Shown here piece after piece: positions 13,272-32,690 of a stretch of DNA of 37,640 bases. Below the pieces are notes generated by a model. That model was not told the DNA's origin, searched no databases, and saw nothing but the letters and a program-made list of their open reading frames with translations. The stretch is taken from contig JAISHQ010000039.1 in assembly GCA_031262465.1 (NCBI GenBank), forward strand, positions 1 through 37,640, written 5' to 3'. Source of the DNA: Rikenellaceae bacterium. GTDB lineage: Bacteria; Bacteroidota; Bacteroidia; Bacteroidales; Rikenellaceae. Each line of letters begins with the position of its first letter. Within the stretch, counting starts at the first letter, position 1. Both the position numbers and the translations under genes were made by a program.

Positions 13272-13562
13272 TTAGATATTACCGTAAAAATCAATCAAAT
13301 CCCCCTCTTTCAGGGTAACAATCGCTTTTTTGAAGTGGTTTGAACGACCGGTGAGCATCCCCGCCTTCGTGTAACGGCTTCTGACTTTGCCGTTGTAGTT
13401 GATCGTGTTCACATCGGTCACCACCACGTTGTAAGCCGCTTCCACCGCATCCTTAATCTGGAGTTTGTTGGCGCGCGGATCAACGATAAAACCGTAACGG
13501 TTCAGCTTCTCGCCCTGAGCCGTCATTTTCTCGGTTAATACTGGCTTAATAATCATATTCAT
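13272..13562 (-). CDS. rplW: 50S ribosomal protein L23
   Basis: Exit-site protein that docks trigger factor and SRP (96 aa). [40 protein letters not shown] and [17 protein letters not shown] match Bacteroidota L23 end to end. The ATG at 13562 is preferred over the internal one two codons later because it fits the family N-terminus. Between rplD (14 bp) and rplB (5 bp). Confidence 0.97.
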
Positions 13563-13576
13563 CGTTTCGTTTTTTC

Positions 13577-14206
13577 TTAGATTCCGAACATTTGGTTGAG
13601 TTCGCCGATGGCGTTCTCAGTCATCAGAATCGTTCCGGCGTTCATCACATCATACGTGTTGACGTTCTGGGCGATGGTTACCTTCACATTCTTGAGGTTG
13701 CGCGCGGACAAAGAGATCGACGGGTTGGATTCGGGAAGAACCAACAGGATTTTTTTGTCGCTCAGTTTCAAGCTGTTCGTTACGTTGAGGAACGATTTGG
13801 TTTTTGGTGTCTCAAAGCCGAACTCTTCAACGATCAGGATGTTAGCCTCTTTCGCCTTGTAGGTCAACGCGCTCTTGCGGGCGAGTTGTTTCAGCTTTTT
13901 GTTGAGTTTGAAACCATAATCGCGCGGAACCGGGCCGAATACGCGCCCACCACCCACGAAGAGCGGCGATTTGAGGCTACCCGCACGGGCACCGCCTGTT
14001 CCTTTTTGTCGTTTGATTTTTTTGGTCGAGCCGGCCACTTCGCCGCGCTGTTTCGACTTGTGGGTACCCTGCCGTTGGTTGGCCAAGTACTGCTTTACGT
14101 CGAGCCAGATCGCGTGGTCGTTGGGTTCAACACCGAAGATCGCATCGTTAAGGGTCGCCATCCGTCCGGTTTCGCCGCCTGTAATGTTCAATACTGCTAA
14201 TTCCAT
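13577..14206 (-). CDS. rplD: 50S ribosomal protein L4
   Basis: 50S protein whose long loop forms the tunnel constriction with L22 (209 aa). The loop region [19 protein letters not shown] and [20 protein letters not shown] is intact. In E. coli L4 is also the autogenous repressor of the S10 operon, binding a leader ahead of rpsJ. Here the large candidate leader lies instead just upstream of rplC, the gene before this one, which makes L4 one plausible ligand (inference). Confidence 0.97.
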
Positions 14207-14208
14207 GA

Positions 14209-14826
14209 CTAATTTTCGATTAATAAGTAAGACCCTTTCGCTCCCGGGATCGACCCTTTGACTAAGAGCAGGTTGCTCTCCGGGAACTTTTTCAATACTC
14301 TCAGGTTCATCACTTTGACCTGCTCACCGCCCATGCGGCCACCCAGCTTCTTGCCCCGGAATACGCGGGAAGGATACGAGGAGGCACCCAATGAACCCGG
14401 TGCGCGCAGGCGGTTGTGTTGACCGTGTGTTTGACCACCCACACCGGCGAATCCGTGACGTTTGACAACCCCCTGAAAGCCTTTCCCTTTCGAGATGCCG
14501 GTCACGTCAACCCAGTCGTCGTCGGCAAAGATGTCGACCGTGATGATGTCTCCCAAGTTAAATTCTTGTTCAAACGATTTGAATTCAGCCACTTTCGCCT
14601 TGGGTGTGGTGCCCGCTTTCTTAAAATGCCCCACTAAGGGCATACCGGCTGTTTTCTCCTTTTTCTCGCCATAGGCAATTTGAACCGAAGCGTAGCCATC
14701 TTTCTCTACGGTTTTCACTTGCGTAACGACACAGGGACCGGCTTCAATAACAGTGCATGGGATGTTTTTCCCCTCAACACTGAAAACGGAAGTCATTCCG
14801 ATTTTTTTTCCAATAAGTCCTGACAT
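14209..14826 (-). CDS. rplC: 50S ribosomal protein L3
   Basis: Early-assembly 50S protein with an extension reaching the peptidyl-transferase centre (205 aa). [39 protein letters not shown] and [20 protein letters not shown] identify it. It is followed closely by rplD (2 bp) but separated from rpsJ by 422 bp, unlike the usual compact S10 order. Confidence 0.97.
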
Positions 14827-15248
14827 TGCGTCTAAGTTTACTTAAAATAGTTTGGTAATACGAAGAAGTGCATCACTACGCTGGCGGCTCGATTTCAGAA
14901 GTATCGGCTTCGGAGAGGATTTTCGGAATCCCTCTCCCCCGCGCGACTCTCTTTTTGAGCACAGCCGTTTTTCGCCTTCTTCGGTCGGAGCCTCGTAACA
15001 GGTTTGATGAGCGTGGCCAACGTAGCCTGCCCCCGGCCTTCATCCGGCATCGACCGATTATTTTATTATCGGCGACCCATATCTCGACCCCTTGTACGGG
15101 AACTCCTATGAGTTGAAATTTTCGTTGCGTTTCAGTAACACAAAACGCCGCGACAGCGATTTTCCTTCAGTTTCCTCTCAGTTTCCCCTCTCGGTTCTCC
15201 CTTGATTCCCCCTCAGTTCACCCCTCTCCGGCTTTTTGTGTCCAGCAA
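14827..15248 (-). promoter_or_regulatory. 422-nt untranslated spacer rpsJ-rplC, candidate leader with hairpins
   Basis: No convincing gene lies on either strand. In the operon sense it begins with a purine-rich block of about 11-nt imperfect repeats (15160-15231, listed separately), then hairpins at 15101-15114 (AACTC/GAGTT, 4-nt loop), 15054-15072 (CCGAT/ATCGG, AU-rich loop) and 14913-14936 (GAGAGG/CCTCTC, continued by a G-U pair on the transcribed strand). No clear TAnnTTTG promoter box was found in it. Position just ahead of rplC-rplD suggests an autoregulatory leader (inference). Confidence 0.45.
15160..15231 (-). repeat. Five imperfect direct repeats of about 11 nt, purine-rich on the sense strand
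   Basis: On the plus strand, units beginning at 15168, 15179, 15192, 15203 and 15214 read CAGTTTCCTCT, CAGTTTCCCCTCT, CGGTTCTCCCT, TGATTCCCCCT and CAGTTCACCCCTCT. Spacing is 11, 13, 11 and 11 nt, about one helical turn. The sense strand is therefore an almost unbroken run of A and G. Repeated protein or antisense contact sites are possible; nothing proves function. Confidence 0.6.
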
Positions 15249-15554
15249 TCAGACTTTGATCTCTACTTCGACCCCGCTCGGGAGTTCCAGCTTCATCAGC
15301 GCGTCGATCGTTTTGGGCGTCGAGCTGTAAATGTCGAGAATGCGTTTGAAGGTCGACAGCTGGAACTGTTCGCGTGACTTCTTGTTCACGAAAGTCGAAC
15401 GGTTCACGGTAAAAATCTTCTTGTTGGTCGGCAGCGGAATAGGCCCGCTGACCACTGCGCCCGTCCCCTTGACGGTCTTCACGATCTTCTCAGCCGACTT
15501 GTCGACCAGCGAGTGGTCGAACGATTTGAGTTTGATTCTTATTTTTTGACTCAT
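15249..15554 (-). CDS. rpsJ: 30S ribosomal protein S10
   Basis: 30S head protein, also the NusE subunit of transcription antitermination complexes (101 aa). [40 protein letters not shown] and [13 protein letters not shown] are diagnostic. The frame is open 6 codons upstream (MHKQKT), but the ATG at 15554 is the family start. Lies 68 bp after fusA and 422 bp before rplC. Confidence 0.96.
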
Positions 15555-15622
15555 GGTTTTTTGTTTATGCACAGCGGGTTCGGCTTTCGGAGAACCTTAT
15601 GCGAAAAAACGTCATTTTACTA

Positions 15623-32608: not shown

Positions 32609-32690
32609 GCCCAGATGGCGGAATTGGTAGACGCGCTGGTCTCAAACACCAGTGGAGTGATCCGTGCCGGTTCGATCCCGGCTCTGGGTA
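32609..32690 (+). tRNA. tRNA-Leu (anticodon CAA)
   Basis: Full cloverleaf by eye: acceptor stem GCCCAGA/TCTGGGT (32609-32615, 32683-32689) with discriminator A; D arm containing GGAATTGGTAGAC; anticodon stem CTGGT/ACCAG around CTCAAAC, anticodon CAA, reading UUG; a long variable arm with a GGA/TCC stem as expected for Leu; T arm GCCGG-TTCGATC-CCGGC. CCA is not encoded. Own promoter and terminator flank it. Confidence 0.95.

Follow-up and report, generated by a model that had tools for sequence, protein, structure and literature searches.

The window, by which we mean the whole 37,640-nt stretch of DNA analysed here, contains a ribosomal protein gene cluster in the order rpsL-rpsG-fusA-rpsJ, a 422-nt gap, and then rplC-rplD-rplW-rplB and further genes (Table 1). 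Pfam confirmed the identities of S10, L3 and L4, and the remaining genes of the cluster were named from gene order and sequence. Both genes that border the gap lie on the minus strand, and exactly 422 nt separate the rpsJ stop codon at 15249 from the rplC ATG at 14826, as the initial annotation had stated; the ten other gaps from rpsL to rplP measure -17 to 52 nt. The true start of rpsJ is likely the ATG at 15554, which gives MSQKIRIK..., six residues downstream of the listed GTG at 15572.

No gene could be recognised in the gap. Its three ORFs of at least 50 aa (82 aa on the plus strand, 55 and 51 aa on the minus strand) are its longest, and none of them matched Pfam at E 0.1, on which ground a small ORF as its content was rejected. 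In an Rfam 15 scan of the window at the gathering score the gap remained empty, so that no known family of ribosomal protein leaders, as had been envisaged at the outset, was recovered there; below the gathering score the gap region gave two matches at chance level (E 2.5 and 2.9). The sole match in the window at the gathering score is a tRNA gene at 32609-32690 on the plus strand. Comparison of the gap DNA with its own genome returned other matches of only 22 and 26 nt (E of at least 0.03); the gap is not a dispersed repeat. The genome bin has a completeness of 93% and a contamination of 5.6%, and misplacement of the contig is argued against by a second genome of the same genus (G001), whose S10 is 97% identical and which has gap islands in common with the window.

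Table 1. Features of the rpsJ-rplC junction in the window
Feature	Coordinates	Strand	Basis or remark
rpsJ (S10)	15249..15572	-	Pfam match; ORF list
422-nt rpsJ-rplC spacer, intercistronic leader candidate	14827..15248	-	no Bacteroidota promoter at 0-1 mismatches; no Rfam family
5' hairpin domain round purine-rich repeat	15137..15242	-	closing stem ACACAAAA/UUUUGUGU and GCCG/CGGC
Degenerate tandem repeats, 11- and 13-nt units, sense strand purine-rich	15161..15228	-	
Conserved island ACGAAAATTTCAACTCATAGGAGT	15102..15125	-	partly common to G001 and G020
Conserved island AGGCTACGTTGGCCA	15014..15028	-	common to G001, E 0.34
rplC-proximal long hairpin	14860..14984	-	lower stem 14976-14983 / 14861-14868 (CGAAGAAG/CUUCUUCG)
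A/U-rich translation initiation region without Shine-Dalgarno sequence	14827..14859	-	sequence
rplC (L3)	14209..14826	-	Pfam match

Parts of the gap and predicted folding

The gap comprises an untranslated, structured RNA directly 5' of a ribosomal protein gene, rplC, which is the general mark of an r-leader. The GCCG/CGGC core of its 5' hairpin and, with one base different, the 3' island TCGCGGCGTTTTGTGT recur in G001. The island at 15102..15125 bears a likeness, by eye, to the short gaps of genus g6 as well, and we propose that it is what is left of an ancestral spacer that was short and AT-rich. The initiation region has a similar character throughout the family (AAGTAA..AGAC..A-ATG, by eye). 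Separately, an AT-rich palindrome like CCTATAATATATAGGTAT was noticed by eye upstream of rplC in several genera (g15, g19 and g22, e.g. L089, L126, L131, L243, L257 and L261).

Three hairpins had originally been described in the sense strand. The minimum free energy structure contains more than three, and the gap as a whole folds no better than shuffled sequence (z -1.05, 12 of 100 shuffles being equally good); its last 160 nt reach z -1.78. What stands out is the rplC-proximal hairpin, with z -3.02 and 1 of 200 shuffles as good, for a region that was picked after inspection. A folding bias is seen across the family: the last 160 nt or fewer of 60 gaps, from 60 genomes with gaps of 100-700 nt, have a mean z of -2.47 (sd 1.62); for controls taken from rplC, which are coding and not intergenic sequence, it is -0.22 (sd 0.66).

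The nearest relative with a complete long gap, G020 (L3 87% identical), has a counterpart hairpin in the same place with z -3.53. Folded separately, the two hairpins share a like base, AAG.GCG / UGC.A.CUU with a bulged A, and GAAGGCGA and AGTGATGCACTT are conserved between them, so that there are islands in both arms. Four of the five outer pairs differ on both strands and are still paired, in a comparison of two sequences whose arms were matched by hand because MAFFT misaligned the 5' arms; the G001 contig ends before reaching the hairpin. The covariation over relatives foreseen in the initial annotation amounts, for the window hairpin, to two sequences with four doubly changed pairs, and is found for elements of genus g8 and of Flavobacteriaceae described below. 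As far as these two sequences indicate, the hairpin appears to have been retained through paired changes in two species. For most of the lower stem the predicted pairing probability rises from 0.75 for the isolated gap to 0.97 with 60 nt of rplC added, and is about 0.33 once 100 nt of coding sequence flank the gap on either side.

Gap length and conservation in related genomes

The pair rpsJ-rplC is usually regarded as a tight one. An L3 match was present in 165 genomes of Rikenellaceae, the family to which the genome of the window belongs; 93 of them were sampled, and in 87 of these the fetched stretch included both genes. Among these 87 the median gap is 178 nt, with one gap of 40 nt or less, 64 of at least 100 nt and ten of at least 422 nt; four of the ten are the gaps of at least 1.5 kb in genera g7 and g9. 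Together with the gap of at least 303 nt in G001, where the contig end is reached first, the family median disposes of the idea of an insertion unique to this strain. (The L3 match is missing in 103 of 268 Rikenellaceae genomes and in 14 of the 110 of good quality, perhaps through missing contigs.) Across 18 other families of the order the median gap measures 24 nt (two of 20 loci being dropped for lack of rpsJ), and in 48 further loci, nearly all from Bacteroidota, it is 42 nt, with 17 of the 48 gaps at 100 nt or more; the latter set is what remained of 80 named loci after subtraction of 10 from Rikenellaceae and 22 without rpsJ. The normal spacing of a few to tens of bases assumed originally therefore holds for most Bacteroidales and fails for those 17 loci.

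In a survey that counts some genomes twice, a spacing of at least 100 nt was found between S10 and L3 in 61 of 83 loci, as against 1/83 for EF-G-S10, 0/35 for L3-L4, 0/35 for L23-L2 and 1/35 for L4-L23; the S12-S7 junction was observed in one locus (116 nt) and S7-EF-G in two (26 nt at most). Among the junctions tested in numbers, expansion is specific to rpsJ-rplC.

A search with the gap DNA returned no orthologous gap, and we rejected the idea of one homologous element throughout the family. The best foreign match, a 39-nt stretch at E 5e-4, comes from another family of the order. Outside the islands the similarity to the gap of G020 is 0.72, for a mean of 0.67 and a maximum of 0.72 in shuffles, and to judge from this comparison the gap sequence is saturated apart from the islands. 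In g11 two gaps (L019, L021) contain long, near-identical tandem units of roughly 100 nt, as seen by eye.

Promoters, terminators and operon splits

The primary sigma consensus of Bacteroides, as given in a passage of PMC7366714, is TTTG at -33 and TAnnTTTG at -7. We scanned the last 500 nt before rplC for TTTG-N17..23-TAnnTTTG with 0-1 mismatches in 79+13 genomes, stretches below 40 nt being excluded (G301, 13 nt; G279, with 4 nt upstream of rplC before the end of the contig). Such a promoter precedes rplC in 13 of the 13 genomes of g7, g9 and g13 plus G068, 11 times without and twice with one mismatch, and in none of the 79 other gaps, that of the window among them. The grouping is by genus: in three g7 genomes rpsJ and rplC are adjacent and not split, and G068 belongs to another family. 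A new promoter of the Bacteroidota type is hence ruled out in the window gap at 0-1 mismatches.

In the genera with promoters the cluster is often physically divided. The seven g7 and g9 genomes with both genes on one stretch have spacings of 315-3133 nt, and in four of them the genes lie 1.5-3.1 kb apart with ORFs between, which by eye look LRR-like, glycosidase-like and lipoprotein-like. In G013 (g13) some 394 kb lie between rpsJ and rplC, which are on opposite strands; the other two g13 genomes show no rpsJ within the available 218 and 1155 nt. A terminator-like hairpin follows rpsJ in 5 of 7 g7/g9 gaps versus 3 of 80 others, and the strong terminators of the split genera are absent from the window gap. 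Loci in which the S10 part is started anew at rpsJ-rplC are L065, L213-L215, L231-L233 and L095 (g7), L216 (g9), and L217, L085 and L229 (g13).

Outside Rikenellaceae, 19 gaps of at least 90 nt include seven with the promoter and seven others with the Flavobacteriaceae element described below. The long gaps bearing a promoter at 0-1 mismatch come from a Prevotellaceae MAG, Flavobacterium and Dyadobacter (L172, L175, L178, L184, L197, L198 and L201).

Since the phylum's promoter is absent from the window gap, yet present in genera that are split or start the S10 part on their own, the likeliest reading of the sequence is that the window gap is transcribed through, as read-through RNA.

Leader elements at the same junction in relatives

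Two elements at this junction can be described by covariance models. The first, from g8 (Alistipes-type), spans 81 positions, is situated some 20 nt upstream of rplC and folds into a long hairpin whose internal loops are unequal. Both sides have changed in 10 of its 17 pairs, 83.8% of cells are paired, and its covariation is 0.345 against 0.187 in shuffled alignments (reached by 0 of 500 shuffles), although the count of further pair types was reached by 46 of 500. The corresponding model, R1, has one copy in each of the six g8 genomes searched and none in six genomes of other genera, the window's included (with at most 150 candidates scored per genome). The element, of the type AGGCUUG...CAAGUGGACU, is seen in L010, L016, L024, L025, L029, L234, L235 and L236. 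In g7 the leader that follows the promoter shows high sequence conservation and modest covariation (0.168 versus 0.102); 121 of 500 shuffles have at least as many doubly changed pairs. A motif common to g7 and g8, a G.U pair plus a 3-nt bulge ending in GA, lies 30-39 nt before rplC; it occurs in 13 of 89 gaps for 0.35 expected, a count that is partly circular, the motif having been defined on these two genera.

The second element, from Flavobacteriaceae, consists of AUGUCC-hairpin-GGAAAAACGG and, 3' of this, a second hairpin with a U run. At E 0.001 its model, R2, matched once in each of 49 genomes out of 60 from this family (that of a Winogradskyella genome), and in 30 of 30 fetched loci the element lies between rpsJ and rplC; it is found in L283-L312, L155, L180, L186, L190, L191, L193 and L199. 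In 35 aligned copies, seven of which were used to build the model, the modelled helices covary (0.220 versus 0.111). An extra helix, absent from the model, would exclude the terminator; its covariation is 0.268 versus 0.089 with 93.7% of cells paired, and its three doubly changed pairs were reached by 390 of 500 shuffles. The element is terminator/antiterminator-like. Seven Flavobacteriaceae loci had no Rfam match at the gathering score, and under relaxed limits one locus gave matches at chance level only (E 0.13-0.62).

Strong matches of R2 are confined to Flavobacteriaceae. A weak one lies in the right place in one of four g11 gaps (L018, 2120-2215 on the minus strand), with E 0.6 in a search of 70 loci and 0.033 in one of five; it might reflect a common ligand or chance. 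The window gap has no match to R1 at E 10 or to R2 at E 5, the window's only R2 match (E 1.5) falling at 13540-13597, outside the gap. With R1 matching g8 only and R2 matching strongly only in Flavobacteriaceae, a single element common to the whole family was rejected on this ground too.

Interpretation

To our knowledge, little is known about how Bacteroidota balance the expression of their ribosomal protein genes. We tentatively favour, at close to even odds, the reading of the gap as a structured leader of rplC that lies between two cistrons, is transcribed through and tunes the translation of rplC. The str-type unit (rpsL-rpsG-fusA-rpsJ) and the S10-type unit (rplC-rplD-...) would remain one transcript, with the junction between them loosened in Rikenellaceae. 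Ribosomes that have passed rpsJ would then meet more than 400 nt of RNA, presumably too long for translational coupling, and would have to re-initiate at an A/U-rich site devoid of a Shine-Dalgarno sequence and placed directly 3' of the 125-nt hairpin. The hairpin would tune initiation at rplC; a plausible ligand is a protein encoded downstream (L3 or L4), and the effect would be to set L3, L4 and the genes that follow apart from S12, S7, EF-G and S10. We infer co-transcription, separate initiation at rplC, tuning by the hairpin and a ribosomal protein ligand (L3 or L4) from the arrangement as a whole; the spacer may let a gut-type bacterium control one half of its ribosomal genes separately. 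That Bacteroidota lack Shine-Dalgarno sequences and that mRNA structure tunes initiation in them is stated in a passage of PMC6847099.

The initial annotation had taken the gap for a shifted leader regulating L3 and L4 apart from the str genes. This was right in direction and is partly supported: an untranslated and partly structured region does precede rplC-rplD, and in related lineages the junction houses leaders or lets the S10 part be transcribed separately. A new transcription start is unsupported for this genome, whose gap has neither a Bacteroidota promoter at 0-1 mismatches nor strong terminators.

The main rival, which we consider rather unlikely, is neutral, lineage-specific growth of the spacer, in which repeats and GC-rich insertions accumulated at a tolerated junction and the hairpins are by-products. 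It holds this place because genus g6, one of the nearest relatives (L3 86% identical), manages with a gap of 55-59 nt, which is too short for such a hairpin. Gap length, moreover, ranges from 13 to 678 nt among unsplit genomes and varies even inside genera, the sequence is saturated outside the islands, and the window has purine-rich degenerate repeats. Neutral growth is argued against by expansion at one junction among those tested in numbers, by the folding bias across 60 genomes, and by conserved islands and paired changes; the gap is, besides, not a dispersed repeat in its own genome.

We regard as improbable that the hairpins are RNase sites or barriers of a processing or mRNA-stability element giving the str and S10 parts different half-lives; hairpins between two parts of a cluster that lack a consensus promoter or strong terminator between them would suit such a role, but nothing in the sequence points to a cleavage site. 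Slightly more improbable still is a separate transcription unit, in which rplC would have its own promoter inside the gap, together with a shifted leader of the S10 type. Promoters of this kind do precede rplC in the sister genera g7, g9 and g13, and the window gap offers two candidates: TTTG-N18-AAAATTTC, its best match to the Bacteroidota consensus, with two mismatches, and one sigma-70-like site (9 of 12) on the sense strand at 15087-15060, matching the consensus of E. coli and not that of the phylum (two such sites on both strands of the 701 nt scanned, versus 0.2 in shuffles). Against it stand the absence of a Bacteroidota match at 0-1 mismatches, the spacing of the weak candidate, which by eye differs in G001, and the want of a strong terminator following rpsJ. 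Least probable of all is a transcription attenuator similar to the Flavobacteriaceae element: the gap has one terminator-like site in the sense direction, at 15158-15146 (three on both strands of the 701 nt, versus 0.9, sd 0.8, in shuffles), but its stem has only 5 bp, its T run is engaged in pairing inside the 5' hairpin and has one T fewer in G001, and R2 finds nothing in the gap at E 5.

Beyond the window, the tuning leader may be one instance of a wider pattern, and we put forward, as a possibility somewhat short of even, that rpsJ-rplC is an unrecognised regulatory hub of Bacteroidota at which lineage after lineage gained a leader uncoupling S10/spc from str, the window representing such a leader at a stage preceding the gain of a promoter, with L3 as a possible ligand. 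The forms of the proposed hub would be a terminator/antiterminator in Flavobacteriaceae, an intercistronic hairpin in the window and g8, and a promoter with a leader, often with a terminator, in g7, g9, g13 and some Dyadobacter and Flavobacterium. This pattern across the junction is of more interest than the window gap itself: the relatives fall into a natural series that begins with a gap of 20 nt, passes by way of structured spacers that are read through and ends with operons that are split completely, and concrete RNAs can now be named in culturable Alistipes and Flavobacteriaceae. The look of the g8 and g9 leaders by eye had also suggested autoregulation by L3 through mimicry of the sarcin-ricin region of 23S rRNA. 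The comparison was negative, with the top match in that region, assumed to be the L3 side, in 1 of 91 gaps for 4.4 expected (reference: one 23S, from G048).

Comparison with known systems

Searches of the open-access literature (subscription journals and supplements lying outside it) and passages of PMC2965389, PMC11109978 and PMC2864571 revealed no rplC leader described for Bacteroidota, and these sources likewise yielded no L3 r-leader. Within the part of Eckert and Weinberg (2020, PMC7247131) considered here, Table 1 lists rplC for Archaeoglobi only, and an S4 r-leader is predicted in Bacteroidia for rpsD, rpoA and rplQ. Set beside it by description, the window gap is alike as a candidate hairpin leader for genes of a large ribosomal protein cluster, and differs in the genes concerned.

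The Flavobacteriaceae element shares its junction with the window gap, but is of the AUGUCC...GGAAAAACGG type, whose model has no match there; the g8 element shares junction and family, and likewise lies near rplC, but its model does not match the window either.

The leader of the E. coli S10 operon sits before rpsJ, as the 5' UTR of an operon that starts with this gene. This operon is regulated by L4, according to a passage of PMC10931766. Unlike that leader, the RNA of the window lies after rpsJ and not between a promoter and rpsJ, and has no promoter of the phylum's type; like it, it would be a long, structured, untranslated RNA before the genes for L3 and L4, and would set the output of the S10 operon.
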